Virus record (IMG/VR): IMGVR_UViG_3300036945_001261
Location: 1 to 21,974 of that record
Length of the DNA stretch: 21,974 nt
Strand: one strand, 5' to 3'
Source: a virus
Position 1 is the first letter of the stretch. Every line of letters starts with the position of its first letter. The position numbers were made by a program, and so were the translations under genes. The notes beneath the pieces are model-generated. The model did no database searches. It was not told the origin of the DNA and saw only the letters and a program-made list of their open reading frames with translations. Positions 3,531-21,291 of this stretch are shown here, piece by piece.

Positions 3531-6500
3531 ATGGCCCTCGCAACACTCAGCATTGACCTTGTTGCCCAGCTCGCCCGCTTCGAGGCCGACATGGGCCGCG
3601 CCGCCCGCGCCGCCGAAACCGCGGCGCAGCGCATGGACCGCGCCTTCACCGGCGTGGGCGCCGTGTTCACCGGCTCGCTGCTGGCCAGCGCGGCAGCCAC
3701 CGCCGCGCGTGAGCTGGCCAACCTGGTGCCGGAACTCGTCAACAGCGTGGCCCGGTTTCAGGATCTGGAAGAGATCACCGGCGCCAGCGCCACCGCCCTG
3801 GCCGGCTTTCAAACCGCGGCCGATGTCTCGGGCACCAGCATCGACACCCTGGCCGGCTTCATGGTCAAGCTCACCGGCACCCTGAGCAAAACCAACGACG
3901 AAACCAAGGGCGCAGGCGCCGCACTGAAGGCCCTGGGGCTGGACATGGAAGCCTTCCGCGCCCTGGCGCCGGAAGAGCAGTTCCTTACCATCGCGCAGCG
4001 CCTCAACACCTTCCGCGACGGCGCCGGCAAAACCGCCATCGCCATTGCCCTGCTCGGCAAGAGCGGCGCCGAGGCGCTGCCGTTCTTCAAAGAGCTGGCC
4101 AACGCCGGGCTCTCGCAAGTGCGCGTCAACGCCGAGCAGATCCGCCAGGCCTATGACCTCATCGACAAGCAAGCCAAGCTGCGCAGCGAACTGCGCCAGG
4201 CCGCGCAGTTGGTGGCCCTGCAAATGCTGCCGGCGTTCAATGAACTCACGCGCGTGTTCGTTGATGTAGCGCGCCAGGCCACCGGGCTCGAAGGCTCGCT
4301 TGATGGCCTGAGCAACAACAGCGGCATTCGCAGCTTTGCCGAAGGCTTGGCCGAAGGCCTGGCCGTGGTGGCTGACGCGGCGGTGTTCGCCACCAAGGCC
4401 ATCCGGCTGCTGGCCGGCGCCGCGCCGCTCATCCCGGCCAGCCTGAACGTGGTGAAGAACCTGGCCGACCCGCAAGCCGCCCGGCAGTTTGCGCGTGAAG
4501 GCACCGGCCCGCTCAAGGAGGCCTATGACGAACGGGCCCGCTTGGTCGAGGCGCAGGAAAAGCGCCTAAAAGACCTCATTGGCGGCGATGACTTCGCCAT
4601 CTCCAACCAGCTCCGCAACCGCTTTGCGACCACCAAACTCGGCGAATCGGTCGGCCTCAACGACATCGACAAACTTCTAGGCGGCACCGGAGACCAGCGC
4701 CCCAAGATCGACTTTCGCGCCGCCGCTGACGCCGACAAAGGCGCCGCCAACAAAGCCGCCCGCGATCTGGAGCAAGCCCGCCGCGCTCGACTGGAGCAAA
4801 ACCTCAAGGCCATTGAAGGCCTGTTCGCCAGCGAGCGCGATGCGGTGCAGTTTCAGCAGCGCTTCCTGCAGGCCGAGCAGGGCGCGGGCCTGGTGTCGCT
4901 GGACGACTACTACACCGAGCGCAAGGCCCTGAATGACCGCGCCTTGCAGGTCGAGCTTGAAGGCTACGCCGAGCGCGTGCGCGCCCTGCAAGCCTACAAC
5001 GCCACCCTTAAGCCCGGCAGTGACGACCGCATCAAGGGCGAAACCCGCGTGGCCGAAGAGGAAGCCAAGGCCGCGCGTGCGCGCCAGGAGTACGCGCAGC
5101 AGGCCTCGCTCGACGCCATTGCCCAGCGCCGCGACTATGAGCAACTGGCCGACGGCGTGCGCGCCTTCAAGGCCCAGTTGCTCGATCTGCAGGGCGACAC
5201 GGCCGGCGCCGCCCGCCTGCGTGCCGACCAGGCCATAGACACCGCGCGCCGCTCGGCCCGCTCCCAAGGCCTGGCCCCGGCCGACGTGAGCGGGTTCGAG
5301 GCGGCCACCAATGCCAGCCTGCGCTTGGCCGAAGCGCAGCGCCAGGTGCAGCGCGCCACCCAAGACGCCGGCATCGAAGAGCAGCGCTTCCTCATCGCCG
5401 CCGAGGCCGCGGGCGCCACCCGCGCCGAAACCGAGCAGGGCGTGTTCCGCATCCGCGCGCAGGCGCTGGAGCAGGTGCGCGAGCAGTTGCGCCTGGCCGA
5501 AGCGCTGGCCGTTTCAGCCAGCCCCGATTCCCCGGCGGTGCAGTTCGCCCGCGAGCTGCGCCTGGAGTTCGAGCGCCTGAACGCCGCGGTGGACCCGGCG
5601 CTGCTGCGCCTGCGCCAAGTGGGGGATGAGGTGGCCGAGTCGCTCGGGCGTGCGGCCAGCGCCATCAGCCTGAACTTCCGCGACGCCAAGAGCGCCGTGA
5701 AGAGCCTGGGCGACAGCCTGTTGCAAATTTCCACGCGCGAGCTGGTCGAGCGCCCGCTGAGTGACTTTTTCCGCCAGCAGATCCGCCAGCTCAGTGAGGG
5801 CGGTGGCGGCATTGGCCAAGCCGTGCGCGGCTTGTTCGGGGTAGGCGGCACCGCGGCGGCGGCGCCCGCTGCGGCCGGGGGTGGGCTCAACCTGGGCGGC
5901 TTGTTCGGCGATGCGGGTGCAGCGCCCGCCCTCTCGGGTGGCGGCTTCAACTTCGGCTCCTTGCTCAGCGGTGCGCTTGGCGGCGGGGGCGGCTCCGGCG
6001 CCGCCTCGGCCACCGTGGAACTCGGCAACCTGGCCCTGGCGGCGCAGAGCGCTGCGCTGGCCCTGAGCGCCATTGGCGGGCCCGGCGGCGGGCTGTTGGG
6101 CGCCAGCGGCGCCGGCCAAATCGGTGGCAGCAGCGCCTTCGACTTCATTGGCGACAGCTTCATCAAGCTCTTCGGCCTGGCCGACGGCGGCTACACCGGC
6201 CCCGGCGGCAAAGACGTGCCCGCGGGCGTGGTGCACAAGGGCGAGGTGGTGTGGAGCCAGGCTGACATTGGCCGCGCCGGTGGCGTGGCCGTGGTCGAGG
6301 GTATGCGCCTGGGCCGGCGCGGGTATGCCGACGGCGGCGTGGTGGACATGCCGCGCGTGTTGCGCGGCGGCTTTCAGTCGGGCTCGCCGGCCGGTGCGCG
6401 GGCGGGCGGGCGGGGTGGCGGCGGCACCACAGTGAACCTCGGCGGCGTTACCGTGGAAAGCGGCGGCTATATGGACAGCATGGCTGAAGACCGCGCGGCC

Positions 6501-6553: not shown

Positions 6554-7186
6554 GTGGGCACGCTTGCCAGCCGCTTGCCGGTGGACATCGAGCGCGGGGC
6601 CGAAGGCGGCCTGGGCTGGAAGACCAGCATCGTCAGCCACCAGAGCGGCCACGAAACCGCCACCCTGGAGTGGGAAGACCACCGCGGCGAGTGGAACATC
6701 GCCCGCGCCATCGAGCGCACGGGCAAGCACGAAGACGCGCGCCGCCACCTCTACAAGTGCCGCGGTGCGTTTCACGATTTCCGCTTCAAGGACTGGATGG
6801 ATTTCGGCTGCACCCGCACCGGCACCGACCGGGGCCGCCTCACCGGCACCACCACCACCTGGCAGATCAACAAGGCGTATGGCACCGACGAAGCCACGTT
6901 CGAGTACGTGCGCCCGCTCTACCGCATCGTGGCCGGCACCCTGCAGGTGTGGCGCAATGCCGCGTTGCAAACGGTGACCACGCACTACACCGTGAATATG
7001 GACACGGGCGTGATCACGTCGCTCGCGTCCTGGGCCGGCGACACGCTGGAAGTGGCCTGCGAGTTCGACGTGCTTTGCCGCTACGACACCCAGCGCCTCA
7101 ACGCGCGCCTGGTGCACCGCCGCGGCGACGGCGTGCAGCTCATCAAGTGGGATGACATCGCCATCGTGGAAAAGCGCGAGTCATGA
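6554..7186 (+). CDS. Distal tail protein, DUF2460 family
   Basis: A 210-aa protein of the DUF2460 (TIGR02217) family. The equivalent in the Rhodobacter gene transfer agent is the distal tail protein that joins the tube to the baseplate hub. Family features are the N-terminal GLGWKTSIVSHQSGHE block, NxARAIERTGKHEDARRHLYKCRGAFHDFRFKDWMD in the middle, and a C-terminal FDVLCRYDTQRL segment followed by IKWDDIAIVEKRES. The start is GTG at 6554, 2 bases after the tape measure stop, preceded by a run of six G (6541-6546) that serves as ribosome binding site. It overlaps the hub gene by 4 bases. Next to DUF2163 and NlpC/P60 genes it forms a well-known tail-tip set. Confidence 0.93.
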   Translation: MGTLASRLPVDIERGAEGGLGWKTSIVSHQSGHETATLEWEDHRGEWNIARAIERTGKHEDARRHLYKCRGAFHDFRFKDWMDFGCTRTGTDRGRLTGTTTTWQINKAYGTDEATFEYVRPLYRIVAGTLQVWRNAALQTVTTHYTVNMDTGVITSLASWAGDTLEVACEFDVLCRYDTQRLNARLVHRRGDGVQLIKWDDIAIVEKRES

Positions 7187-8037
7187 CCGCCAAAACCCTC
7201 CCCGGCCCCCTGGCCGCGCAGGTTGCCGCCGGCTCCCTCACCTGGGCCTGGTTCGCCGAGATCATCCGCACCGATGCCTATGCCCTGCGCCTGTGCGGCG
7301 GCACACGTGATGCAGTCATCGACGGCGACACCTACACCGCCTCTGACGGCCTCACCATCAGCAGCATCGCCAGCAGCGTGGGCCTGAGCGTTGACAACGG
7401 CAAATTCACCCTGGGCGACAGCGCCATCGTCCTGCGCGAAGACATTCTTGATGGCCTGTGGGACGGCGCCAAGTACCGCCTCGGGCAATACAACTGGGCC
7501 AGCCCGAGTGACGGGGTGGTGGTGTGGGCGGCCGGCTGGCTGGGCGAGGCCGAGCCGCGCTTGGGCGCCTATGACTTCGAGTTCCGCGACTTGCGCCAGG
7601 CCCTGCAGCAAGACACCACCCGCGTGCACGAGTTCGCCTGCCCCTACGTGCTGGGTGATGCGCGTTGCACCCAAGACCTCACCGCCTTCACCATCGCCGC
7701 CGTGCCGCTCACCAGCGTCACCAGCACGCGCATCTTCGCCGCGTCGTCACTCGCCGCCGCGGCCGGCTACTACACCGAAGGCCGGTTGCTCTTCACCACC
7801 GGCGCCAACGCCAACGGCATCTGGCGCCAGATCCAGGCCCACGCCACCGGCGGCGTCATGACCCTCACGCGCCCGCTGCTGCGCGCCGCGTCGGTGGCCG
7901 ATCAATTCACCATCATCGCCGGCTGTGACCATCAGCCCGCAACCTGCCGCGACAAGTTCTCAAACAAGGTGAACTACGGCGGCTGCGACACCAAGCCCAG
8001 CCGCAGCGACATCATCAACGGGGAGCTAGCGCCGTGA
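7183..8037 (+). CDS. Tail hub protein, DUF2163 family, likely Fe-S binding
   Basis: A 284-aa protein of the DUF2163 / phage BR0599 family, the baseplate hub of gene-transfer-agent-like tails and functional counterpart of lambda gpL. The N-terminus (LAAQVAAGSLTWAWFAEIIRTD, then GxTYTASDG) and the C-terminal GCDHQPATCRDKFSNKVNYGG block are family marks. Cysteines 153 and 162 (C-x8-C) and 248 and 255 (C-x6-C) are arranged like the four ligands of the [4Fe-4S] cluster described for lambda gpL. Two more cysteines lie at 38 and 268. It overlaps both neighbours by a few bases. The Fe-S cluster is inference from spacing and family. Confidence 0.93.
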   Translation: MTAKTLPGPLAAQVAAGSLTWAWFAEIIRTDAYALRLCGGTRDAVIDGDTYTASDGLTISSIASSVGLSVDNGKFTLGDSAIVLREDILDGLWDGAKYRLGQYNWASPSDGVVVWAAGWLGEAEPRLGAYDFEFRDLRQALQQDTTRVHEFACPYVLGDARCTQDLTAFTIAAVPLTSVTSTRIFAASSLAAAAGYYTEGRLLFTTGANANGIWRQIQAHATGGVMTLTRPLLRAASVADQFTIIAGCDHQPATCRDKFSNKVNYGGCDTKPSRSDIINGELAP

Positions 8038-8489
8038 TGAGCCAGCCCGCCACCGTCTCGCGCGCCGACTGGCTGGCCTGGCTGCTCAGCCTGGAGGGCA
8101 CGCCCTACCAACACCAGGGCCGCACGCCCGGCGTGGCCATGGATTGCGTCGCCCCGCTGGTGTGCGGCGCCGTGCGCTTCGGCCACAAACCCCCGGGCTT
8201 CGATTTCAACGGCTACAGCCGCGAGCCCGATGGTTCACTGAAAGCGCTGCTCGACGCCAACCTCGTGCCCATCGAGCGCGACCGCCTGCAGGTGGGTGAC
8301 GCCGTGTTGAACGGCTTTCGCCTCGAGCAGCCGCGCCACCTCGCCATCATCGTCGGCGAGGCGTTCGACCAGTGGGTCATGCTGCACGCCAGCTCCGTGG
8401 TGGGCCGGATGCAGCAAGAGCGCATCCAGTACAACCGGCGGCTCTACCGCTTCGTGCAGGGCTACCGCCTGCCCTGGGTGCAGGCATGA
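8037..8489 (+). CDS. NlpC/P60 cell-wall peptidase of the tail tip
   Basis: A 150-aa NlpC/P60-type peptidase (TIGR02219-like), which cuts peptidoglycan peptides at the tip during DNA entry. Visible catalytic residues, counted from the upstream GTG, are Cys38 in MDCVA after GTPYQHQGR, His102 in RHLAII and His118 in LHASS. The ATG at 8037 overlaps the hub stop (TGATG), and GGGGAG (8021-8026) lies 10 bases upstream. A GTG at 8034 is an equally possible start, one residue longer, with 7-base spacing. The 3' end overlaps the tip protein gene by 4 bases (ATGA). The order DUF2460-DUF2163-NlpC/P60-large tip protein is the gene transfer agent arrangement. Confidence 0.93.
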   Translation: MSQPATVSRADWLAWLLSLEGTPYQHQGRTPGVAMDCVAPLVCGAVRFGHKPPGFDFNGYSREPDGSLKALLDANLVPIERDRLQVGDAVLNGFRLEQPRHLAIIVGEAFDQWVMLHASSVVGRMQQERIQYNRRLYRFVQGYRLPWVQA

Positions 8490-11473
8490 GCAGCGGCCGG
8501 CAAGCGCTCACCATCGTCGGCCAGGTTGCCGGCGCGGCCATCGGTGGCCCCATTGGCGCAGCCATCGGCGGCGCCATCGGCGGCGAAATCGGCGGCTTCA
8601 TCGACGGCCCGCCGGAGGGGCCGAGACTTGACGACACCAGCGCCCCGGCCATCGAATACGGCAGCCAGGTGCCGCGCCTCTACGGCCGCGTCTGGTGCAC
8701 CTTGTCGCCGCGCTGGTGGTCGGGCCTGCGCGAAAGCGCCGAGGTCGTCGGCGGCAAGGGCGGCGACAGCGGCCAAGAGCAGTACAGCTACCGCGCCGAC
8801 CTGCTGGGCGTGCTGGGCGAGGTGGACCTGACGCGCTGGCCCGACCCAGTTTGGACCAGAATTCGCATCGACGGCAAGATCGTCGCCAGCCGCCTGGCCA
8901 GCAGCAGCACCGACACGCTCACCAACACCGCCGAAACGGAGGATTGGAGCGACGTCGAGCTGTTCAACGGCGACGCCGCGCAGGCGCCGTGGAGCGTGAT
9001 GGAGGCGGTAGAGGGCGCCACCAACGCCATTGCCTACCGCGGGCAGGTGACCATCGGTTTCACCAACCTGCTCATGCCTGGCGGGCGCCGGCCTTCGCTG
9101 ATCGAGGTCGAGGTGTGCACCGACGCCACCGCCGTGACCGGCCTGGCCAACTGCGTGCTGCAGGCCAACTTCGTGAGCGATGCGAGTGACAGCAGCTACT
9201 ACAACAACACGCCCGCGGTGGTCGGGTCTTGGAGCTACGGCCCGAACCTGAGCACCGGCGTTTCCAACGCCAACAAAGAGGTCGTCTGGTCTGACGCCGA
9301 CATGGCCGTGCGCAGCGCCACCGGCTTCACCCTGCAAACCCGTGTGACGCTGCGGGCCATGGATTTCGGCGACTCGGCCGCCGGCCAGAACATCATCCTG
9401 CGCATGGATTGGGTGAGCGGCGCCACGCGCACCCTGTCGCTCGCGGCTGAGCGCAGATTCTCGGGTGATCTGGAGCTGATCGCCAGCGACGGCACCACGG
9501 AGTATTGGCGCATCAGCGTGGCGCAAGATCAGTCCTACCACGTCGCCTTCGTGGTGAGCGCCGGTGCCTCGCCCACGTTGGATGTTTACCTCGACGGCAC
9601 CGTGGCTTACTCCGGCGCGTTCACCAACTGGCCCTCGACCAGCGCCACGGTTTACACCGAAATGTTCAGCACCTTCGGCACCCGCGGCTGGGAGCTGGCC
9701 TGGGTTGACCTCTGGATGCTGCCGCTGTACTCGGCCGACTTCGCAGCACCCGCCGAGCCCGATGCCCCCGATGCGCCGCTTGGCTCATTCACGCCGCTCA
9801 CCGTTGACCTGCAAGACGTGCTCGAAAGCGAAATGCTGCGCTGCGAGCCGCTCACCTCAGCACACATCGACATGGCTGCCGCCGCCGGCAAAGAGGTGTA
9901 CGGCTTCAAGGCCGCCGGCAGCGCTGCGCAGTCTTGCGCCACATTGCTGGATTGGTACTACCTCGACCTGTTTTGCGCCGCCACCATCACCGCCGTGGCC
10001 CGCGGCGGCAGCAGCGAGCAGACCATCGCCTACGGCTACTCCGGCGCCGGGTTGGGCGGCGCGTCGGACCCCTTCGCCGGCCTGGTGCGCGGCGCCGACG
10101 TGGAGCAGCAGCGCTCCACCTCGGTGGGCTACATCAACATCCTGGCCGACGGCGAGGCCGGCAGCGAAAACGGTGACCGCATCGGCACCGGCAACGCCAT
10201 CCGGCAGATCAGCTTTCCGCTCTACTCCATTGCCAGCGCCGCCAAGGGCCGCGCCAACAGCATCACGCATGACACCCGCGTGGCGGCGCACAAGGCCACC
10301 GTGCGCTTCAGCGCCCGCTACGGCGCGCTCATGCAGCCCGCCAGCGTGGTCACGCTCACCGACAACAAGGCCCTGAGCTACCGCGTGCGCGTGCTGCGCC
10401 TGGTGTGGAACCAGGGCGTTTACGAGGCCGATGTCTGCCTCGACGACCCGACCATTCTGACTGATGTGGGCGTTGCCAGCGACGCCGACACCCAGGCCAT
10501 CGAAGTGCCGGCGCCCGGCATCGCCGAGTTCATCGCGCTTGATCTGCCCAAGCTCCTGCCCGCCGACAACGAGCCCGGCTACCTCGGTCTGGTGAAAACG
10601 CCTGATGCTGCCGGCGCCCGCTGGTTCGACAGCGCCGACGACGTGACCTACGCTGCCCGCGCCGACTACGTGAACGACGCGACGTTCGGCACCGTCACCG
10701 CAAAAACAGGCAGCTTCAACCGCGGCGTGCTGTTCGACGAAACCTCCACGCTCACGGTTGATGTGGGCGACGGCGTGCTCACCAGCACCACGCACGCAGC
10801 CCTGCTCGGCAGCCGCGCCCTGAATGCCTTTGCGGTGGGCGTGAACGTCCGCCTGGCGCTGGGCCAGTACCGCACCGCCACCCTCGTCAGCCCCGGCATC
10901 TACAGGCTCACGGGCTTCGTGAACATGGGCGCGAAGGGCACCGAGCGATTCTGCGCCGGCATCATCGTCGGCGATTCCTTCGCCCTGCTCGGCACCGCAG
11001 GCACCAACCGCATCCCGCGCACGCTGCCCACGCTGGGCGTGCCCACCTACACCAAAGCCGTCGCCGTTGGCCGCACCCTGGCCGGCGTCACGGCCGTGCC
11101 GCTCACGCCCTACGGTGTGTCACTCAAGCCCCTGGCCCCGGTGGATCTGCGGGCCAACCGCAACGCCACCAGCGGCGACATCGTGCTGAGCGCCCTGCGC
11201 CGCACGCGCGACGACTGCCGCTTCGGCGGCGCCCTGGGTGACGCCTGCCCGCTGGGTGAGGCCATCGACCTGCGCCGCTGGCGCCTCTACACCAGCAGCG
11301 CCTTCACCACCGTGCTGCGCGAGCTGGGCACCACCACCAACGCGGCCACCGCCACCTACACCAGCGCGCAGCGCGCAACAGACGGCCACAGCCTCTACGG
11401 CAGCCTCTTCGTGGGCGTGGCGCAGATGAGCGACACCATGGGCGCGGGCTACGAACTCACAGGCACGATATGA
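8486..11473 (+). CDS. Tail tip attachment / host specificity protein with LamG-like insert
   Basis: A 995-aa protein at the place of lambda gpJ or the gene transfer agent Megatron protein. The N-terminus is a glycine-zipper stretch (QVAGAAIGGPIGAAIGGAIG) followed by the typical IEYGSQVPRLYGR and ADLLGVLGEVD segments. Residues about 220-415 look like an inserted concanavalin/LamG-type jelly roll: FTLQTRVTLR near 280, then LDVYLDGTVAYSG near 365-377. After it comes the conserved hub-type part (SFTPLTVDLQDVLE; then HKATVRFSARYGALMQPASV; then VLRLVWNQGVYEADVCLDDP). The C-terminal 300 residues are less conserved and probably face the host. The start ATG 8486 overlaps the peptidase stop. The frame is open to 8372, but the earlier ATG lies inside the peptidase gene and gives no family sequence. 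Confidence 0.93.
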   Translation: MSSGRQALTIVGQVAGAAIGGPIGAAIGGAIGGEIGGFIDGPPEGPRLDDTSAPAIEYGSQVPRLYGRVWCTLSPRWWSGLRESAEVVGGKGGDSGQEQYSYRADLLGVLGEVDLTRWPDPVWTRIRIDGKIVASRLASSSTDTLTNTAETEDWSDVELFNGDAAQAPWSVMEAVEGATNAIAYRGQVTIGFTNLLMPGGRRPSLIEVEVCTDATAVTGLANCVLQANFVSDASDSSYYNNTPAVVGSWSYGPNLSTGVSNANKEVVWSDADMAVRSATGFTLQTRVTLRAMDFGDSAAGQNIILRMDWVSGATRTLSLAAERRFSGDLELIASDGTTEYWRISVAQDQSYHVAFVVSAGASPTLDVYLDGTVAYSGAFTNWPSTSATVYTEMFSTFGTRGWELAWVDLWMLPLYSADFAAPAEPDAPDAPLGSFTPLTVDLQDVLESEMLRCEPLTSAHIDMAAAAGKEVYGFKAAGSAAQSCATLLDWYYLDLFCAATITAVARGGSSEQTIAYGYSGAGLGGASDPFAGLVRGADVEQQRSTSVGYINILADGEAGSENGDRIGTGNAIRQISFPLYSIASAAKGRANSITHDTRVAAHKATVRFSARYGALMQPASVVTLTDNKALSYRVRVLRLVWNQGVYEADVCLDDPTILTDVGVASDADTQAIEVPAPGIAEFIALDLPKLLPADNEPGYLGLVKTPDAAGARWFDSADDVTYAARADYVNDATFGTVTAKTGSFNRGVLFDETSTLTVDVGDGVLTSTTHAALLGSRALNAFAVGVNVRLALGQYRTATLVSPGIYRLTGFVNMGAKGTERFCAGIIVGDSFALLGTAGTNRIPRTLPTLGVPTYTKAVAVGRTLAGVTAVPLTPYGVSLKPLAPVDLRANRNATSGDIVLSALRRTRDDCRFGGALGDACPLGEAIDLRRWRLYTSSAFTTVLRELGTTTNAATATYTSAQRATDGHSLYGSLFVGVAQMSDTMGAGYELTGTI

Positions 11474-14130: not shown

Positions 14131-14381
14131 GCCACGCCCTCTACACCGTTCGCGTCTTCTTCGACGACGCATCGGGCTGCGTCAAAGCGCCCGGCGTGTT
14201 CCGCAACATCAGCCGCGCGCCGGTGGTCCCGGGGTTGCCAAAGCTCGACATGATCGACTTCGCGCCCGAGGTGAATGTGGCGCAGTTGCGCGCGCACATG
14301 GGCGAGCGGCGCGAGATGCACGAGGCTGAAGCGCTGGCTGTGGTGGCGTGGCTGCGGGCGGTGCAGGCGGGGGCGGCGTGA
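14127..14381 (+). CDS. Small conserved-looking protein, unknown
   Basis: An 84-aa soluble protein (MSHALYTVRVFFDDASG start, then NVAQLRAHMGERREMHEAEALAVVAWLRAVQ). I chose ATG 14127, which overlaps the previous stop and has a purine-rich GGAAGAAAAG just before it. The frame is open further back to an ATG at 14043, but that part shadows the membrane protein gene. It lies between two lysis-type membrane genes and the endolysin. No motif suggests an enzyme. The start codon of the endolysin (GTG 14378) overlaps its stop. Confidence 0.75.
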   Translation: MSHALYTVRVFFDDASGCVKAPGVFRNISRAPVVPGLPKLDMIDFAPEVNVAQLRAHMGERREMHEAEALAVVAWLRAVQAGAA

Positions 14382-15535
14382 CGCCAGAGCTGCTGCGCGT
14401 CGCCACCGGCTGCACCCAGGCCGCCGCAGAGCGCTTCGCTGCGCCGCTGGCTGCCGCGTGCGCGTTCTACGGCATCGACACCCCGCAGCGCCTGGCCGCG
14501 TTTTTGGCGCAGATTGGGCATGAGTCTGGCGCGCTGCGCTATGTGAGTGAGCTGTGGGGGCCAACCGCGGCGCAGGCGCGCTACGAAGGCCGCGCCGACC
14601 TGGGCAACACGCAGCCCGGCGACGGCGAACGCTTCAAGGGCCACGGCCTGATTCAGACTACGGGCCGCTTCAACCACGCCCGCGTGCGCGACAGGCTGCG
14701 CGACCGCTTCCCGGCCCTGAACGTGCCCGACTTCGAACTCGACCCCGAGGCGCTGACGGATCCGCAGTGGGCCGCCCTGAGCGCCGCCGACTATTGGGAC
14801 GACCGCAAGCTCAATGCGCTGGCCGATGCCGGCGAGTTCGCCACCATCACCCGCAAGATCAACGGCGGGCTGAACGGCCAGGCCGACCGGCTGGCGCGCT
14901 GGGAGCGCGCCAAGAACGCACTGCAATTGCCCACCCAGCCCACCCAGCCCGCGCAAACGCTACCACTTTTCCATCTCGGCCCCGAGCCGCAACAGGAGCA
15001 ACCCACCATGCCATTGCCACTCATCATCGGCGCGCTGCTGCCGAGCATCATCGAAGCCATCCCCAAGCTGGGCAAGTTGTTCGGCAGCGGCAGCGAGGTG
15101 GCCGAGCGCAACGTCAAGGCCGCCGAGCTAGCCGTCACCATCGTCAAGGAAGCTGTCGGGGCGCGCAACGAGCAGGAGGCGGCTGAGATACTCAAAGCCG
15201 ACCCCGCGGCGGCGCAGGCGGCCATTGCGGCGGTCGAGCAGCGGTGGTTTGAGTTGAGCGAGTCCGGCGGCGGCGGGATCGACGGAGCGCGCAAGGCCGA
15301 TGCAGCCGTGACTGGCGAAAAGGGCATGCTGCACAGCCCGAGCTTCTGGGTGGCCGTGGCCCTGCTGCCGCTGGTTTACATGATCGTGGGCAGCGTGGTC
15401 GGGCTGTTCGGGGCGCCGTGGTCGGATGATGTACGCAGCGCCATCGCCAACGGCGTCGTGGGCATTGTGCTCGGCTCGGTGGGTGGCTATTACTTCGGGC
15501 AGAGCACGTCGCGCAATCGCACGCCAGCACCGTAG
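14378..15535 (+). CDS. Endolysin, GH19 family, fused to C-terminal membrane domain
   Basis: A 385-aa protein. Residues 1 to about 190 are a GH19 (chitinase/lysozyme type) domain that cleaves the sugar backbone of peptidoglycan. Visible motifs are GHES at 47-50 with the likely catalytic Glu49, ARYEGR at 67-72, LGNTQPGDG, and KGHGLIQTTGR at 87-97. A Pro/Thr/Gln-rich linker follows (about 190-210), then a 175-residue domain with a hydrophobic start (MPLPLIIGALLP), a helical Ala/Glu-rich part, and two membrane segments near residues 325-346 and 356-375. GH19 endolysins usually lack this domain. The GTG start has GGCGG upstream and overlaps the previous stop (GTGA). The internal AUG at 15008 with its own ribosome binding site suggests a second product. 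Confidence 0.92.
   Translation: MTPELLRVATGCTQAAAERFAAPLAAACAFYGIDTPQRLAAFLAQIGHESGALRYVSELWGPTAAQARYEGRADLGNTQPGDGERFKGHGLIQTTGRFNHARVRDRLRDRFPALNVPDFELDPEALTDPQWAALSAADYWDDRKLNALADAGEFATITRKINGGLNGQADRLARWERAKNALQLPTQPTQPAQTLPLFHLGPEPQQEQPTMPLPLIIGALLPSIIEAIPKLGKLFGSGSEVAERNVKAAELAVTIVKEAVGARNEQEAAEILKADPAAAQAAIAAVEQRWFELSESGGGGIDGARKADAAVTGEKGMLHSPSFWVAVALLPLVYMIVGSVVGLFGAPWSDDVRSAIANGVVGIVLGSVGGYYFGQSTSRNRTPAP
15008..15535 (+). CDS. Possible internal product: 175-aa holin-like membrane protein
   Basis: The C-terminal part of the endolysin frame can be made alone from ATG 15008. AGGAG lies at 14994-14998, 9 bases upstream, a much better Shine-Dalgarno sequence than random coding DNA usually has. 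The product starts with MPLPLIIGALLPSIIEAIPK and ends with two membrane segments and SRNRTPAP. This reads like a protein that in other phages could be a separate gene with a lysis or membrane role; that comparison is from memory. It may be that the ancestral endolysin stop codon was lost and the two genes fused in frame. Whether both the fusion and the short form are made is not decidable here. Confidence 0.45.
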   Translation: MPLPLIIGALLPSIIEAIPKLGKLFGSGSEVAERNVKAAELAVTIVKEAVGARNEQEAAEILKADPAAAQAAIAAVEQRWFELSESGGGGIDGARKADAAVTGEKGMLHSPSFWVAVALLPLVYMIVGSVVGLFGAPWSDDVRSAIANGVVGIVLGSVGGYYFGQSTSRNRTPAP

Positions 15536-16055: not shown

Positions 16056-16217
16056 TCAAACTTTATTTTGAGATGCCGAAACTTCCCACACGCCGCGCCT
16101 TGCGGAAACTCCTGCTTTGACCCTTGGTGCCCGGGGCCGGACTCGAACCGGCACGCCTTGCGGCTTGCCTCCCAAGATTCCGCCGCCTGCTCCTGCAAAA
16201 AGTGCCAACTCACGCAT
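16056..16217 (-). pseudogene. Truncated C5-cytosine DNA methyltransferase (5' end only)
   Basis: From ATG 16217 the minus strand encodes MRELALFAGAGGGILGG, the N-terminus of Dcm-type C5-cytosine methyltransferases with the FxGxGG cofactor motif I. After about 17 codons homology stops, the frame runs into a tRNA 3' end (16125-16166) and ends at 16056. A purine-rich ribosome binding site (GGAAAGGA) precedes the ATG. The fragment lies just beyond an attC-like site, in the same position that the other cassette genes have relative to their sites. It appears to be the start of a fifth cassette cut off by recombination at the tRNA sequence. Confidence 0.7.
16125..16166 (-). other. tRNA-Leu 3' fragment, probable phage attachment core
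   Basis: Read on the minus strand, the piece has a variable-arm-like hairpin (GCCGCAAGGC), a perfect T stem-loop (GCCGG-TTCGAGT-CCGGC), the 3' acceptor strand CCCGGGC, discriminator A and an encoded CCA at the end. The long variable arm and the expected GCCCGGG acceptor partner fit tRNA-Leu. The D and anticodon arms are absent; a methyltransferase gene start takes their place. Phages often carry the 3' end of a tRNA gene as attP so that integration restores the tRNA. This is therefore probably attP, or attR of a prophage. Confidence 0.75.
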
Positions 16218-16243
16218 AGTCCTTTCCGTTTCTCCACCAAGCC

Positions 16244-16301
16244 ATCTAACCCGTCGCTCGAACGGACGGCCTACGGCCGCCGTTCAGCTCCCACGTTATG
16301 C
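16244..16301 (+). repeat. attC site 1 (58 bp)
   Basis: R'' ATCTAAC (16244-16250), 5-base spacer, L'' GCTCGAACGG (16256-16265), short palindromic centre CGGCC-TAC-GGCCG, L' CCGTTCAGC (16280-16288), 6-base spacer, R' GTTATGC (16295-16301). L'' has one extra C against L', the extrahelical base of integron attC sites. The stop codon of the N4/N6 methyltransferase (TAA on the minus strand, 16298-16296) lies inside R'. Length equals a classical 59-base element. Confidence 0.88.
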
Positions 16302-17291
16302 GTCAATGCTCGCCTCGGCTTCAGCGTCCAGTAGTAGATCGTCCGTCTCTGCACCGATCTTCACGCCAGCCGCAGCCGCGCCGACGTTCTTGCATGCCTG
16401 CCGGTAGTAGCTGGCCTTCAGTTCCGCGCCAACCCCCCGCCGGCCCAGCAGCACCGGGCTATAGACCTCGGACCCCACGCCCATGAATGGCGTGAACACG
16501 GTTTCGCCTGGGTTGCTGAAAAGCTGCACGCAGCGGTCGATCACGTCAAGCTGCAAGGGGTGAACGTGCTTTTCGTCTTCGCCGTCGCGCGCCTCGCGGA
16601 ATGGCAGAACGTGCCCGATGCGGATGTCGTCCCACATGCAATCCGCGTACTGCCGCCAGATCCAATGCGAGAAGCGGTTTTCGGTTTGCTTGCCTTTCCA
16701 CCCGCGATAGCGCATCACTTCGCCAGGCGGGGTGCGGTCGCCTGCATAGTCAAGCATGCCCACCGGGTGCGCCACTGGCACCGGGTTTGCGCCACGCTTG
16801 CGAAAGGTGAGCAACTGGTCACCAGCCGCCACGCCACAGTCGATTGAGTCCTTGACAAGCGACTGATGCGCCAGGTTTTTTTGCATGGTGCGCAGCCGCA
16901 CCGCGAGCGGCTCCTTCCAGATCATGCGACGGCCAGCGAACAGCCAACCCTCGCGCTCGTGAAGTCGGATGATGTCGCCGGGAAAGTCGATGTAGCTGTC
17001 GGTTCCGCTGTTACTGCGCGGCACGTCCATGCAGTGAACTGCGGTCACGCGGCCTGGCATCGTGATGCGGTTCAGTTCGCGCACGCAGAATGCGTACTGC
17101 TCGAAAAACGTCTCGTAATCGTCGCAGTTTGAAAGGTCGCGCTCGCTGCTGCTGTAGTGATACAGCCCACCGAACGGCGGCGAGTAGATCGATAGGTGAA
17201 CGCATGCGTCGGGCATGCCTTGCATAACCTCCACGCAGTCCCCGTGATAAATGGCGAACTTGTCGGTAATCAGTTGGTCATGCACAGCCAT
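16296..17291 (-). CDS. DNA methyltransferase, N4-cytosine/N6-adenine class (beta type)
   Basis: A 331-aa amino-methyltransferase of the N6_N4 family. Motif IV (SPPF, residues 37-40) comes first and the cofactor motif I (FMGVGS, about 269-274) comes last, which is the beta-class order; the SPP form is most often found with N4-cytosine enzymes. It transfers a methyl group from S-adenosylmethionine to DNA, probably to protect phage DNA from host restriction. A strong ribosome binding site (AGGAG, 8 bases before ATG) and a 22-base overlap with the SNF2 gene show joint translation. The stop codon is inside the core box of attC site 1. No restriction endonuclease partner is visible. Confidence 0.92.
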   Translation of the reverse strand: MAVHDQLITDKFAIYHGDCVEVMQGMPDACVHLSIYSPPFGGLYHYSSSERDLSNCDDYETFFEQYAFCVRELNRITMPGRVTAVHCMDVPRSNSGTDSYIDFPGDIIRLHEREGWLFAGRRMIWKEPLAVRLRTMQKNLAHQSLVKDSIDCGVAAGDQLLTFRKRGANPVPVAHPVGMLDYAGDRTPPGEVMRYRGWKGKQTENRFSHWIWRQYADCMWDDIRIGHVLPFREARDGEDEKHVHPLQLDVIDRCVQLFSNPGETVFTPFMGVGSEVYSPVLLGRRGVGAELKASYYRQACKNVGAAAAGVKIGAETDDLLLDAEAEASIDA

Positions 17292-18646
17292 TGCGGTAGC
17301 TCCTGAGTCTTGGTGAAAGCGGAAGCGCGGTCGATTGCCTGGGCGGCATTCATCTCGGCCACGAGGTTAGAAAACATCTTGTCGGCTTGCTCGGCCTTGC
17401 GTTGCAGGTTGCGCAGCACGCCGCGCTCGCCTTCGGTGGTCACGATGTCCACCGTAACCGGGCGCTGCTGCCCGAAGCGCCAGCACCGCCGCACGCCTTG
17501 GTAATACTGCTCGAACGAGTGCGAGGGAAAAAAAGTGATGTGGTTGCAGTGCTGATAGTTCAGGCCCCAAGCGCCGATCTTCGGCTTGGTAATCAGCACG
17601 CGGGCGCGGCCTTCTGCAAAGTCCAACAGCTTGCCTTCCTTCTTGTCGTCGGTGTCGGCGCCGCTGACCTGTATCGCGTCAGGTATCAAGTCCTCTAGCT
17701 GGTCGCCTTCGTCGTTCAGGTGGCACCACACGAGCGCCGGCTGTCCTGTCGGGTTCACAAGGTCGGCCACCCGCGCGCATCGTTCCTTCAGCGTGCGGCG
17801 CCGTTCCTTGCGTTGCTCATCCAGGCCCACGGCGGGCAGTGCGAAAAGGAACCCGTCCGCCACAGTCTCAGCTTCGACCACATGCTCAACCTCGCGCAGT
17901 TCAGGCAGCACGAAACGCGCATCGTCAAACCCGAGGTCAGACGGCCGGCGCACCGCACGCGCCCACGAGCAAACCCAGCGCCAGAACGGAAGCTCGGCGT
18001 GGCCCTTCAGTCGCCACTTGATGACCTCGCCACCAATGCGGCCCTGGGCGCTGTTGTTCATGTCGTTCTTGAAGAACCGATTGAGCATGTCCATGTGGCC
18101 CAGGTAGCCCAGGGCTTCGCTTGAGGTGCCCAACTCCGTGAAGTCGTTCGGCGCGGCCGTTGCCGTCGCCAGCAGGCGATAGGGCAGCTTGCGGGCAAAG
18201 GCCGTGATATCGCCGCGCGTTGCGCCGCTGTAGCTCTTGAGAATGCTGCTCTCGTCGCAGGCCACGCCCACAAACTGCGTCGCGTCGAATAGGTGCAACT
18301 TCTCGTAGTTCGTAATCGTGATGCCAGCGTGTGGCACGCCATTGCGCGACACCTTGGCCTCAATGCCGAACTTCTCCGCATCCTTGGCAATCTGGTGCGT
18401 CACGGCCAGCGGGGTCAGCAGCAGCACGCGCCCGCCAGTGCGCTGCACCACGTTGTCAGCCCATACCAGCTCAATGGCAGTCTTGCCTAGCCCGCAGTCG
18501 GCAAACACTGCCGCCCGGCCCTTGAGCAAGGCCCACTCCACCAGCTCGGCCTGAAAGTCAAACAACCACGACGGCATGCTCACCGGGGCAAAGCCGTGGT
18601 TGCCGTCTAGCTGGGCTTTGCGGTCCAAGAATTGCGCGTAACTCAT
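17270..18646 (-). CDS. SNF2-like DEAD-box helicase / DNA translocase
   Basis: A 458-aa superfamily 2 ATPase. It starts MSYAQFLDRKAQL, has motif I CGLGKT near residues 51-56, motif II CDESS near 130-134 in place of DEAD/DEAH, motif III ATATAAPND, and motif VI QGVRRCWRFGQQRPV near residues 393-407. Phages often pair a SNF2-type helicase with a DNA methyltransferase; remodelling or translocation of DNA in replication or anti-restriction is likely. I chose ATG 18646, with GAGGA 10 bases upstream. A TTG at 18667 would add 7 residues, with a ribosome binding site less well placed. It lies directly after attC site 2 in the direction of transcription and overlaps the methyltransferase gene. Confidence 0.93.
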   Translation of the reverse strand: MSYAQFLDRKAQLDGNHGFAPVSMPSWLFDFQAELVEWALLKGRAAVFADCGLGKTAIELVWADNVVQRTGGRVLLLTPLAVTHQIAKDAEKFGIEAKVSRNGVPHAGITITNYEKLHLFDATQFVGVACDESSILKSYSGATRGDITAFARKLPYRLLATATAAPNDFTELGTSSEALGYLGHMDMLNRFFKNDMNNSAQGRIGGEVIKWRLKGHAELPFWRWVCSWARAVRRPSDLGFDDARFVLPELREVEHVVEAETVADGFLFALPAVGLDEQRKERRRTLKERCARVADLVNPTGQPALVWCHLNDEGDQLEDLIPDAIQVSGADTDDKKEGKLLDFAEGRARVLITKPKIGAWGLNYQHCNHITFFPSHSFEQYYQGVRRCWRFGQQRPVTVDIVTTEGERGVLRNLQRKAEQADKMFSNLVAEMNAAQAIDRASAFTKTQELPQWLCMTN

Positions 18647-18674
18647 AGATTCGTTGTCCTCATACAAAATGCAC

Positions 18675-18774
18675 GCATAACACGTCGGTCAAGCGGAGCG
18701 CCCACGGCGTTCCGCACCTTCTCGCTTCGCCATCACCGTGCCGCCGTGGTCACCCGCTTACCTTGGCGTTAGCC
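18675..18774 (+). repeat. attC site 2 (100 bp)
   Basis: R'' GCATAAC (18675-18681), 5-base spacer, L'' GGTCAAGCGG (18687-18696), L' CCGCTTACC (18754-18762), 5-base spacer, R' GTTAGCC (18768-18774). L'' has one extra C. The stem continues inward: CCACGGCG is matched by CGCCGTGG. The stop of the SPOUT methyltransferase (TAA) lies in R'. Confidence 0.88.
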
Positions 18775-19206
18775 CGCTTGCTTACTGGCACGGTCGTAAA
18801 GCACCACGTTCACCGCGGCCGCCAAGTTCATGCAGTAGCGCGTGGGCACATAGACCACATCGCGGCACCACGCCAGGATGTCGGGGCTCAGCGTGCCATC
18901 CTCGGGCCCGAACACGTAGAACGCGCTCGTCGGGTGTTTGTACCCGGGCAGCGCCTGTGCGCCTTCAATCATGTCCACGGCCACCGGCACGGCGCCGTAC
19001 GGAATCATGGCCCGCAGGTCGTCGCAGGTCAGCAGCGGCAAATGGCGGTGCGCGGCCTGGGTGTCGGTGCGGCTGCGGCGGTAGCGGGTGCCGCTGGCCG
19101 CAATCATGGCCGCGCCATAGCAGCCAGCCGCGCGCAGCACTTCACCCACGTTCAGCGGGTCTTTCGGTTGGTGCAGCCCGATCGCTGCGAATCCGCGTGC
19201 CATCAT
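18769..19206 (-). CDS. SPOUT-class RNA 2'-O-methyltransferase (TrmH/SpoU family)
   Basis: A 145-aa knotted-fold methyltransferase. Motif 1 is NVGEVLRAAG (19-28, with Asn19 and Arg25). Motif 2 is YVFGPEDG (97-104, with Glu102). Motif 3 is VPTRYCMNLAAAVNVVLYDR (120-139). Length is near the minimal members such as TrmL, which methylate the ribose of wobble bases in tRNA-Leu, but substrate cannot be told from sequence. The start is ATGATG at 19206, with GAAGGGGGAA directly before it. The frame is open back to 19443, but that part runs through attC site 3 and gives no family sequence. This is an uncommon cargo for a phage: it could alter host or phage tRNA. Confidence 0.92.
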   Translation of the reverse strand: MMARGFAAIGLHQPKDPLNVGEVLRAAGCYGAAMIAASGTRYRRSRTDTQAAHRHLPLLTCDDLRAMIPYGAVPVAVDMIEGAQALPGYKHPTSAFYVFGPEDGTLSPDILAWCRDVVYVPTRYCMNLAAAVNVVLYDRASKQAG

Positions 19207-19226
19207 TTCCCCCTTCTCAACCGGCG

Positions 19227-19328
19227 GGCTAACCCGTCGTGCAAGCTGAGCCCCAACAGCAGGGCACAGCGGTAGTCTTCGGCACAGCCTGTGGCTGCTG
19301 TTGGTGCCAGCTTCACTCTGCGTTATGC
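19227..19328 (+). repeat. attC site 3 (102 bp)
   Basis: R'' GGCTAAC (19227-19233), 5-base spacer, L'' GTGCAAGCTG (19239-19248), L' CAGCTTCAC (19308-19316), 5-base spacer, R' GTTATGC (19322-19328). L'' has one extra C. Inward, CCAACAGCAG is matched exactly by CTGCTGTTGG. The last codons and stop of the Dam-type gene (19315-19313) fall inside the site. Confidence 0.88.
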
Positions 19329-19774
19329 CCCACAACCACGAAGCCGAGCCGGCTTCGCTGCAGGGCATCCAAGTTGCTGGCGCCGTAGGCCACCAGCGCG
19401 ATCGGGGCGCCGCTGTTGAAAGCAGCCCTGCGCCCGTCCACAAAGTGAAAGTGCGGCCTGCCGCGCAGGAACAGCACGCCCGCCGCGTGGCCCCACACGG
19501 CGCCGTAGAACATGGCCGTCTCGGTCCGCGCCGGAATCAACGCAATGCCGTTGCCGTGGTCGCGCAGCTTCTCCAGCCACTTCACGGCCTCGCGCCCGAA
19601 TGGCGGGTTGCACCACACGCGGCCATGCCACGGCAGCGCCAGGCCATCGTCGGCCGCGGTGTAGTGAGAGGCCGCGGTGTCCCAGGGCCGCGTCACTGGC
19701 GCGCACGGGTCCAGGTCGAACGCGCCCAGCGCCGCCAGGATCTCGGGCGGCGTCAACCACTCGTCGTTCTTCAT
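19313..19774 (-). CDS. Phage-type DNA N6-adenine methyltransferase (Dam)
   Basis: A 153-aa enzyme of the phage N-6-adenine-methyltransferase family. It starts MKNDEWLTPPEILAALG, has DLDPCAP (20-26), the catalytic NPPF motif IV in WCNPPFGR (54-61), IALIPARTET, and GRPHFHF. It methylates adenine in DNA, probably at GATC by family precedent, for restriction escape or replication timing. ATG 19774 gives the usual family start. The open frame runs to 19885, but those 37 extra codons lie mostly in attC site 4. The last residues (GHNAE) are encoded inside the core of attC site 3, so recombination there would change or extend the C-terminus. Confidence 0.9.
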   Translation of the reverse strand: MKNDEWLTPPEILAALGAFDLDPCAPVTRPWDTAASHYTAADDGLALPWHGRVWCNPPFGREAVKWLEKLRDHGNGIALIPARTETAMFYGAVWGHAAGVLFLRGRPHFHFVDGRRAAFNSGAPIALVAYGASNLDALQRSRLGFVVVGHNAE

Positions 19775-19827
19775 GGCTGCGCTCTGGTGCCCACCAAGGC
19801 CGCGTCCGCGTGCTCCGGCACGGTGGG

Positions 19828-19915
19828 GCATAACCCCGCATTCGAGCGGACCCGTAGCGGCATCGGTTTGCTTCGTTGAGGTCATTTCGCGGGTCCGCTC
19901 AATGCAACGTTAGCG
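19828..19915 (+). repeat. attC site 4 (88 bp)
   Basis: R'' GCATAAC (19828-19834), 5-base spacer, L'' ATTCGAGCGG (19840-19849), L' CCGCTCAAT (19895-19903), 5-base spacer, R' GTTAGCG (19909-19915). L'' has one extra C, and the stem continues with GACCCG/CGGGTC. The C-terminal codons of the neighbouring PPC-motif gene run through the R' half of the site. Confidence 0.88.
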
Positions 19916-20481
19916 GGCTTGCAGCGCCCCGCCAGTTCAACAAGCCACCGCGCCAGCTCGGGCGGTGTGTGTTCGTATTCATGCTTAGAAACGCTGGGGC
20001 GGCAAGTTGCGCGGTCACGACCGCCCCATAGACCAACGGTGTGGGTTGCCTCACCCAGCACCAGCGGCAATTCCGGCACCCCTGCGGGCTCGCATCCAAC
20101 CACATAGAGCCGTGTCCGCTTCTGCGCTCGATGCCCCCACCAGTTCTGGTCAATCACTAGCGTGAACCCTCCAAACGCATCGCGCTGGCCCACGGCAGGC
20201 AGGCGCTGTGCGTCCCACAGGGTTGTGCGGTGCGGGTGCTCCAGTACACCGCCAAACTCGCGCACCAGCGCCACAGCCAGCCGCGCCAGATTGCGCTCGT
20301 CGGGGCGCGGCTTGGCATGGTTACGCAAACTGGCCCACGCACGGCATGGTGGGTGCGCCACCACGGGCCACGGGCCGTCGTAGTTGCGGGCATCGCGGGC
20401 CATGTCGTACACCTCAACTCCTGGCAGGGTCTTGTAGTGGCTGTCCTCGCGTGCAAAAAGCACCGCTACGCGCGTCGCCAT
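19882..20481 (-). CDS. PPC-motif protein, possible divergent C5-methyltransferase relative
   Basis: A 199-aa protein. From the chosen start MATRVAVLFAREDS it has GVEVYDMARDAR (21-32), HPPCRAW (43-49), EHPHRTTLW (81-89), QNWWGHRAQKRTRLYVVGC and TPPELARWLVELAGR. The acidic VYD segment, then PPC, then EHP recall motifs II, IV and VI of C5-cytosine methyltransferases, but a clear FxGxG motif is absent, so function is open. I do not recognise a named family. The frame is open up to 20661, with possible starts at 20532 and inside attC site 5; I prefer 20481 because the sequence after it looks conserved. The final residues (about NVALSGPAK) are encoded by attC site 4. Confidence 0.8.
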   Translation of the reverse strand: MATRVAVLFAREDSHYKTLPGVEVYDMARDARNYDGPWPVVAHPPCRAWASLRNHAKPRPDERNLARLAVALVREFGGVLEHPHRTTLWDAQRLPAVGQRDAFGGFTLVIDQNWWGHRAQKRTRLYVVGCEPAGVPELPLVLGEATHTVGLWGGRDRATCRPSVSKHEYEHTPPELARWLVELAGRCKPANVALSGPAK

Positions 20482-20576
20482 CAAGGCCCCGGCAGCGAAC
20501 ACGCCGCCCGCTGCGTCTTCGGCGGCAATCATTTCAGGTGTCAGCAGGCCACGGACTGAGCGCTCCCGAACTAGCC

Positions 20577-20697
20577 CGCTAACACTGCGCTGCACCGGAC
20601 CCGCCCCAGCGGGCCGGTGGCTGTCGTCGGTCGGTGCGGTGTTGGTCATGTTGGTGGTCATCGCGCTGTGTCGGGCCGGTGAGCTTGGGCGTTAACC
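20577..20697 (+). repeat. attC site 5 (121 bp)
   Basis: R'' CGCTAAC (20577-20583), 5-base spacer, L'' GCTGCACCGG (20589-20598), L' CCGGTGAGC (20676-20684), 6-base spacer, R' GTTAACC (20691-20697). L'' has one extra base (G here). The long centre can form a further stem. The stop codon of the HD hydrolase gene (TAA) lies in R'. The matching GGTTAAC box is not seen further right in the window, so this is probably the last site of the array. Confidence 0.82.
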
Positions 20698-21291
20698 CTC
20701 ACCCTGCCACCCCTCAGTCACCCGCAGCGTGTCCGCAATCTCTTCGTGCTTGCACAGGTAGGCCAGGCGCCAATCCGACCACTCCATGCCCTCGCGGTCG
20801 TTGAGGTCGATCCATGCCACTGGCTGCACGCCTTCAAGGCAGGGCCAGGCGTCAGGGTGGGCGGCCATGAGGTCGCGGCGCTCGGTGGCCAGCGCCACCA
20901 GGTCCGCGTGCTTGATGGCCAAGGCGAACTGCTGGGCGGCTTTCGCTATGCCAAAGTGGGCCTCGACAGCGGCGACGATGGGGCGTTCGGCTTCGCGCCA
21001 GGCCTGGCCGATGCGCTCTTTCATGGGGGTGCTGAGGTCGTTGGTGTAGGCCTCGGGGGCGTCATGCAGCAGCGCGGCGCGCAGGCACATGGCGTTGATG
21101 TTGGGCACGCTGCGCTCCAGGATCTCCGTGACGAGCAGGCAGTGTTCGGCCACGCTGTAGGGGCGGGTGGTGGCGCCGCAGAAACGATTGATAAGGGCCA
21201 GGTGCCATGCAATGTCTTCGATGCAGACCATGCTGGCCTTGGGTGCCGCCAGCTCGAAGCGGCGGGCGCTGCGGGTGAGCATGTAGGTCAT
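20692..21291 (-). CDS. HD-domain phosphohydrolase (YfbR-like)
   Basis: A 199-aa metal-dependent phosphohydrolase. The HD site is visible: His50 in SVAEH, His76-Asp77 in LLHDAPEAY, and Asp130 in KHADLVALATERRD, with MVCIEDIAWHLALINRF near the start as in phage HD proteins. YfbR-like enzymes remove phosphate from deoxynucleoside monophosphates, so a role in nucleotide pools or counter-defence is likely. The start at 21291 overlaps the upstream gene (ATGA), and no Shine-Dalgarno sequence is seen, so translation is coupled. Its stop codon lies in the R' box of attC site 5, marking the junction of phage operon and cassette array. Confidence 0.93.
   Translation of the reverse strand: MTYMLTRSARRFELAAPKASMVCIEDIAWHLALINRFCGATTRPYSVAEHCLLVTEILERSVPNINAMCLRAALLHDAPEAYTNDLSTPMKERIGQAWREAERPIVAAVEAHFGIAKAAQQFALAIKHADLVALATERRDLMAAHPDAWPCLEGVQPVAWIDLNDREGMEWSDWRLAYLCKHEEIADTLRVTEGWQGEG

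Follow-up and report, generated by a model that had tools for sequence, protein, structure and literature searches.

A phage gene-cassette array that very probably belongs to a widespread kind of integron with reversed cassettes

Bacteria trade antibiotic-resistance genes by means of the swappable gene cassettes of integrons, and in class 1 integrons expression of the cassettes is driven by Pc, which would not be so at the locus described here. In the inverted integrons of Treponema, it is intI that has the flipped orientation, relative to both attI and the array. Phages, for their part, are known to be mosaic. CALINs with methyltransferase cassettes as well as captured host integrons have already been described in phages, the cases being TJE1, P12002L, PH101, MW202573 and the Vibrio anguillarum phages (Qi et al. 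2023, PMC9892861). The view in the initial annotation of the present locus that such an arrangement is not known in phages was thus too strong, given these published CALINs; the rest of its interpretation is supported. What appears to be new is a dedicated lineage of phage integrons in which reversed cassettes occupy the end of the early operon: our searches of the open-licence literature turned up neither a phage-specific integron of reversed polarity nor a dedicated site-specific device that swaps single genes where a phage early operon ends. The array analysed here is very probably genuine, the CALIN of a temperate siphovirus, and a member of a widespread group of phage integrons with reversed cassettes.

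The array lies in a stretch of 21,974 nucleotides from the IMG/VR virus record IMGVR_UViG_3300036945_001261 (hereafter, the window). As judged from its sequence, the window holds genuine attC sites with cassette boundaries and reversed polarity. Five sites were identified, all on the + strand: site 1 at 16244..16301 (R'' ATCTAAC, R' GTTATGC), site 2 at 18675..18774 (R'' GCATAAC, R' GTTAGCC), site 3 at 19227..19328 (R'' GGCTAAC, R' GTTATGC), site 4 at 19828..19915 (R'' GCATAAC, R' GTTAGCG) and site 5 at 20577..20697 (R'' CGCTAAC, R' GTTAACC). A covariance model built from 22 attC sites, taken exclusively from class 1 integrons and Burkholderiales chromosomal integrons, and run with filters off, recovered all five (E = 5.8e-11, 9.6e-9, 2.5e-7, 2.9e-9 and 4.8e-5, respectively) and no further credible attC in the whole window; the next match, at E = 0.048, fell on the reverse strand of site 4 and was followed by matches with E >2. 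In each of the five sites, L'' and L' are complementary at 7/7 positions with exactly one extra base in L'', and the spacers measure 5 bases between R'' and L'' and 5-6 bases between L' and R'. The strict attC pattern with consensus-like R boxes was observed 5 times compared to 0.13 expected per dinucleotide-shuffled window; looser patterns produced 1-6 chance matches per shuffled window, so that the strict pattern and the covariance model were adopted. As a control, the attC scanner was applied to an annotated class 1 array, where it recovered 6/6 sites in the correct orientation. Comparison of the window to Rfam yielded no meaningful match. The R' box of each site is the exact reverse complement of the R'' box of the next site for 4/4 cassettes, which is the signature of cassette circles, and the match at the G|TT boundary is likewise exact across all four. 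The full attC layout at five sites, the extra base in each L'' and the reverse-complementary core boxes of each cassette, all proposed in the initial annotation, were thus borne out, and the covariance model that it suggested as a check matched 5/5 sites (E from 6e-11 to 5e-5).

The cassette genes lie on the opposite strand. Cassette A carries a gene for an N4/N6 DNA methylase (16296..17291, − strand; PF01555 1.7e-12, phrog_67), the TAA stop of which corresponds, as reverse complement, to the TTA of the site 1 R' box, and a gene for a phage-type DNA helicase (17270..18667, −; phrog_62 6e-52). Cassette B encodes a SpoU-type RNA methylase (18769..19206, −; PF00588 3.1e-15), with the stop codon inside the R' box of site 2, and cassette C a phage Dam-type N6-adenine methylase (19313..19774, −; PF05869, phrog_111 2.8e-40). 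For the cassette D gene (ORF 19882..20661, −; phrog_12600 4.3e-66), the true start probably lies inside the ORF because the conserved part stops near 20470-20480; a fold search with this gene yielded a best E of 0.06 and a mixture of methyltransferases and DHFR that is not interpretable. The cargo is phage-type, as indicated by the phrog matches, and all cassette genes, with strands assigned by homology, are antisense to their attC, whereas the genes of canonical integrons follow the attC direction and are read from Pc. The initial annotation had missed the opposite orientation of the genes, as well as the relatives' own IntI/attI lineage.

Reversed polarity is not confined to the window. Across 20 arrays, 66 of the 69 callable cassettes are opposite to attC (43/45 in an overlapping earlier set) and 3 run along it, with strand calls failing for about 44% of small cassettes (54/123). 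By comparison, 5/5 and 2/2 cassettes have the same direction as attC in annotated controls, and in chromosomal integrons the ratio of cassettes along vs. against attC is 26:4, with more than one method used to judge strand across the control and phage arrays. For two window cassettes of homology-known strand, a composition-based caller gave the wrong answer, and a codon log-odds caller trained on phage genes was used in its place; low-GC class 1 genes are handled unreliably by the latter, and for these the annotation was used.

The array is located between a leftward early-type operon and an attP-like tRNA-Leu core that neighbours the lysis genes. The late (lysis) block, with its endolysin ORF (14348..15535, +; phrog_181 4.6e-58), stops just short of the probable phage attachment core (attP), a tRNA-Leu 3' end (16125..16164, −) that is 40/40 identical next to the array of viral genome G006 and 92.5% identical near an integrase gene in G004. 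The left end of the array adjoins this tRNA-Leu 3' half, to which the opening codons of a truncated cytosine-methylase-like gene are fused; the remnant of that gene (MRELALFAGAGGGILGGK; 16166..16226, −) is cut by the tRNA core and shows 89% identity to a stretch within the array of G011. This junction, too, had gone unremarked in the initial annotation. At the other end, the stop codon of an HD phosphatase gene (20692..21291, −; phrog_318 1.7e-47) lies within the R' box of site 5, and the covariance model detected no further attC in the window beyond this gene. The tape-measure and endolysin families are both present in the window, and relatives with the same layout have host flanks and encode capsid, terminase or portal proteins, in agreement with the phage nature claimed at the outset. 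The window, a partial 22 kb record, contains no match to tyrosine integrase (PF00589). A search for close backbone relatives via the HD gene and the endolysin found distant ones only, and comparison of the DNA to phage and plasmid collections revealed similarity of single genes only and no similar array.

We detected no intI (TIGR02249) and no phage attI motif in the window. Because it is without its own integrase and attI, the array is a CALIN, that is, at least 2 neighbouring attC without intI; the intI in cis and the attI of a complete integron are both absent from the window and both present in relatives. The search for intI advised in the initial annotation was accordingly negative in the window and positive in related viral contigs, where full-length IntI is found with attI beside it. 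Many viral contigs and prophages are organised as phage int - intI - attI - inverted cassettes - early genes, a Thiobacillus provirus with host flanks and a second prophage have the same gene order, and structural genes in the set include those for capsid, terminase, portal, tape-measure and J proteins. In a quick tree with 35 controls picked from the best-scoring Burkholderiales matches, most IntIs of the same-layout viruses form one supported clade apart from the sampled host IntIs, with six viral IntIs placed elsewhere in the tree; the phage IntIs that group apart come from several phage types. A search for the phage attI motif, GTCGNNGAATTTAAG|TT, added about 20 IntI-bearing viral contigs.

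Comparison of related phages, another of the checks put forward, revealed gains and losses of exactly one or more cassettes at G|TT. Viral contigs L218 and L219 are nearly identical in the flanks and are distinguished by whole cassettes, the breakpoints falling at RYYYAA|C. DNA-modification genes are among the cargo of the cassettes that related viruses visibly swap. Cassette A of the window has counterparts of 94% identity in six other viral contigs (L002-L007), starting exactly at G|TT; for the window itself, the gain or loss is seen at this one boundary. In the relatives, then, IntI, attI and exact cassette exchange are established at the sequence level.

We consider it improbable that the array is a piece of a host chromosomal integron captured by accident, as in the Vibrio anguillarum phages, and devoid of phage-specific function, even though captured host integrons in phages are on record (PMC9892861), IntI occurs in one third of the sampled Burkholderiales, and the attC sites are so similar to the Burkholderiales type that a model built on bacterial sites detects them. 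Host cassettes run mostly along attC and phage cassettes against it, the cargo is phage-type, phage IntIs from several phage types stand apart from those of the sampled hosts and go with an attI motif of their own, and in Thiobacillus sp. 65-1402, one chromosomal-type IntI and one phage IntI fall in different groups of the tree. Misassembly joining a host integron fragment to a phage is very unlikely: the window is a single 22 kb metagenomic record in which the tRNA-Leu core beside the array is a place where wrong joins can arise, but phage-type genes flank the array on both sides, G006 has the same core next to a reversed array, and proviruses with host flanks keep the same gene order. GC-rich hairpins are common and match loose patterns by chance, yet an explanation of the structures as ordinary terminators of transcription, or as hairpins arisen by chance in GC-rich DNA, is practically untenable, being contradicted by the five covariance-model matches, the low expectation for the strict pattern, and the exactness of the paired boxes and exchange breakpoints.

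A possibility of more weight, although we lean against it, is that the array is a dead relic, formerly mobile and now a fixed operon segment in this phage. It may be a fossil because intI, attI and tyrosine integrase are all missing from the window, and the tRNA core cuts the left-hand gene short. Conversely, pairing and boxes are intact in 5/5 attC and boundary complementarity is exact in 4/4 cassettes, which suggests recent activity of the array, and an IntI acting in trans could still serve it.

Under the preferred interpretation, a CALIN akin to the reversed-cassette phage integrons, five attC, four complete cassettes and one truncated neighbour would make up the promoter-distal end of a leftward operon, a plug-in panel of nucleic-acid-modification and other genes. 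In this kind of integron, the geometry of intI, attI and attC is canonical, with only the genes within the cassettes reversed; cassettes would leave and join via cuts at G|TT, newcomers would enter at attI next to intI, and IntI presumably catalyses bottom-strand recombination at attC. Given their reversed orientation, the cassette genes would be read from the phage leftward promoter, probably an early one, with transcription passing through the cassettes on into intI, rather than from the integron Pc; a role of the cassettes in anti-restriction seems plausible. We think it likely that these elements form a phage-specific integron lineage, with its own IntI clade and attI family and a cassette pool selected for reversed polarity. 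If so, each captured gene would thereby join the phage early operon instead of an integron Pc, early transcription would continue into intI, and a largely self-contained phage-to-phage cassette economy would swap DNA-modification and counter-defence genes. Such exchange would explain the rapid change of methyltransferases and other host-interaction genes in temperate phages with the operon undamaged, offers a reason why integron polarity can be reversed, and hints that the phages draw on cassettes distinct from those of the bacterial pool. The system is directly testable, since IntI is intact, attI can be recognised and sister phages differ in the cassettes that they carry.

Like the window, the phages of Qi et al. 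2023 have genuine attC and methyltransferase cargo, mostly without an integrase, and in MW202573, attC sites are also opposite to the genes, according to our attC scan. However, the complete integrons among those cases are captured host or class 1 elements (PMC9892861) and the genes of TJE1 run along attC, whereas here the genes are reversed and relatives have their own IntI clade, attI and visible cassette exchange between sister phages. Burkholderiales sedentary chromosomal integrons share the attC type, the IntI family (TIGR02249) and an intI opposite to the attC direction, but their cassettes are mostly along attC (26:4), their IntIs are separate and they are without the phage attI motif. 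Class 1 mobile integrons are alike in attC architecture and G|TT boundaries and differ in their resistance cargo, absent here, and in genes that run along attC (5/5 annotated). The inverted integrons of Treponema also have an unusual relative orientation of parts; in the phage integrons, by contrast, the relation of intI, attI and attC is the usual one, and only the cassette genes are flipped.

A strict attC pattern (NNNNAAC box, spacer of 5-6 bases, L''/L' pair, spacer of 5-6 bases and GTTNNNN box, with consensus-like R boxes and an 8-base L'' pairing with a 7-base L' at 7/7 positions after one base is dropped) returned five sites in this linear IMG/VR record of 21,974 bases, all on the + strand and exactly those that the initial annotation had proposed as an integron-type cassette array at 16244-20697. 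Dinucleotide shuffles yielded 0.13 sites per window vs. the 5 real ones. In a control, a class 1 array with annotated genes, the scanner recovered all 6 sites, oriented with those genes. A covariance model trained on 22 bacterial attC sites only (class 1 and Burkholderiales chromosomal), run with filters off, also matched 5 of the 5 window sites (E = 5.8 × 10−11 to 4.8 × 10−5); the next matches were site 4 on the reverse strand (E = 0.048) and others with E > 2. The complementary core boxes described in the same annotation were borne out, R' and R'' being exactly complementary in all 4 cassettes. Because no IntI, tyrosine integrase or attI motif was found within the window, the array is a CALIN (at least two attC sites close together without intI).

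Cassette A encodes an N4/N6 DNA methylase and a phage-type helicase, cassette B a SpoU-type RNA methylase, cassette C a phage Dam methylase, and cassette D phrog_12600, which has no assigned function and whose predicted fold gave no clear match in a fold search. Six other viral contigs carry cassette A at 94% identity; the identity starts exactly at the site 1 G/TT cut, with an unrelated attC hairpin to its left, and ends short of site 2, so that one of the two boundaries was tested there; the similarity of gene D to other phages is confined to the gene. To the right of the array lies an HD phosphatase gene, and to the left a cytosine-methylase-like gene (recognised by its LFAGAGGGILGG motif) of which only the beginning remains, cut off by a 40-base tRNA-Leu 3' end. 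At 16117-16226 the tRNA-Leu 3' half is joined to approximately the first 18 codons of this gene, which looks as though one more cassette had been interrupted by the attachment site. This tRNA-Leu core, just past which the lysis block ends, is probably attP, given that an identical copy adjoins the array of phage G006 and a 92.5% identical copy lies near an integrase gene in G004.

All five window sites have the + orientation, which is set by the extra base in L'', and all cassette genes are on the − strand, a polarity that the initial annotation did not mention. Genes run with attC in the annotated class 1 integron (5/5) and in phage TJE1 (2/2), and mostly so in Burkholderiales chromosomal integrons (26:4, composition caller). 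For 20 arrays in viral contigs and prophage-like MAG contigs, the strand could be called in 69 cassettes, 66 of which were opposite to attC, and not in 54 small ones; the count in an earlier, overlapping set was 43 of 45. When a gene is reversed relative to attC, its stop codon TAA may simply be the TTA of the R' box G/TTA read on the other strand, and in the window the DNA methylase, SpoU-type methylase and HD genes have their stop codon in an R' box. An opposite-strand ORF with such a stop was present at 31 of the 60 GTTA-bearing sites in the arrays examined vs. 9 of 46 such sites in controls, although some of these ORFs are spurious (e.g., at window site 3).

The exact cassette-sized gains and losses expected of related phages were found between L218 and L219, near-identical sister phages from different metagenomes. 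One flank of the array matches without a difference for 2036 bases, and the flank on the side of IntI reaches 99.9% identity over 4 kb. The stretch between them contains five cassettes that both phages share as essentially identical whole units and a sixth with 78% identity. L218 has two cassettes that L219 lacks (5179-5794 and 7558-8314), L219 has one that L218 lacks (6894-7344), and each has its own IntI-proximal segment (9086-9835 and 9011-9835, respectively). Identity switches at RYYYAA/C, which reads G/TTRRRY in the direction of attC, to within the box bases that the two share. As these breaks fall at the R' end, not at R'', they independently support the polarity.

On the IntI side, the two phages rejoin at ...GTCGTTGAATTTAAG/TT, a point that we infer to be attI. 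The motif also precedes IntI in phage G008 and, in a closely similar form, in L290; L220 and L222 have variants of it, and it was found at 0 of 35 bacterial IntI loci. Scanning IMG/VR with GTCGNNGAATTTAAGTTR returned 53 stretches, a number close to the roughly 50 matches that we estimate for chance in a collection this large; unlike the match number itself, the adjacency of the motif to IntI or part of it, seen in about 25 stretches (about 20 previously unseen), is not expected by chance.

Queries with gene D and cassette A identified viral contigs that carry as many as 11 attC sites apiece, oriented against gene D, and two of these contigs encode a full IntI above the curated cut-off. An IntI scan identified 18 viral contigs bearing a well-matched IntI, several of which encode an additional integrase of ordinary phage type nearby. 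G008, which has terminase and portal genes, also occurs as a provirus spanning ~14.0-51.4 kb on a Thiobacillus contig of 56 kb; a DEAD-box helicase gene and gltX (recognised by sequence) flank it, and its layout is phage int, IntI, cassettes, early genes, repressor-like gene and late genes. A second prophage, adjoining host ccm-like genes, carries int, IntI, four attC sites and a RecE-like exonuclease gene. Major capsid, tape-measure and J proteins are encoded on G437, the contig of L219, whereas G445, the contig of L229, carries genes for an integrase and the major capsid protein. The longest array seen (~14 attC sites, with IntI) is in viral contig L432 (IMGVR_UViG_3300014814_000055). In phage G006, the same 128-residue protein occurs in two cassettes of one array (L176, 10998-11384 and 13739-14125), which suggests cassette duplication. 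An HD phosphatase 41% identical to that of the window (G015, 30673-31431, in L187) may be a cassette there, since it lies between two attC sites. Distant (42-46%) methylase-helicase pairs of the window type directly adjoin IntI in L222 (1636-3755) and L229 (7676-9795). The IntI genes of L451, L452 and the end of G012 (58982-59305) are apparently broken by an internal gap or the contig end.

In a tree with 35 sampled bacterial IntIs, 27 viral or prophage IntIs formed one group apart from these (SH-aLRT 91), and six more viral IntIs a separate divergent group. Most members of the second divergent viral group, L223-L228, have few or no attC sites by the model used here. Because the tree was quick and its controls limited, we do not claim a single origin.

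Most likely, IntI would insert cassettes at attI, which has intI and attP as neighbours and lies where the leftward early operon is farthest from its promoter. With orientation fixed by attC, the phage promoter would read only genes reversed relative to attC, and selection would build a cassette pool of reversed polarity; read-through from the operon would express intI too. Sequence evidence supports the sites, boundaries, polarity, IntI, attI and exchange; transcription, catalysis and an anti-restriction function we infer. As IntI is absent from the window phage, any present mobility would need IntI in trans; it is present in a third of the sampled Burkholderiales, whose enzymes may or may not act on the window sites.

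The literature searched yielded no description of a phage-specific IntI/attI lineage or of reversed cassettes. Three complete phage integrons, one In0 and 17 CALINs have been reported, with methyltransferase cargo already noted, and 5 of 6 phage attC sites recombined with attI1 (Qi et al. 2023, PMC9892861). The Vibrio phages of that study had captured pieces of host integrons. In its phage MW202573, the present scan places the attC sites of the published CALIN (L211, 2069-3738) opposite to the annotated genes, as in the window.
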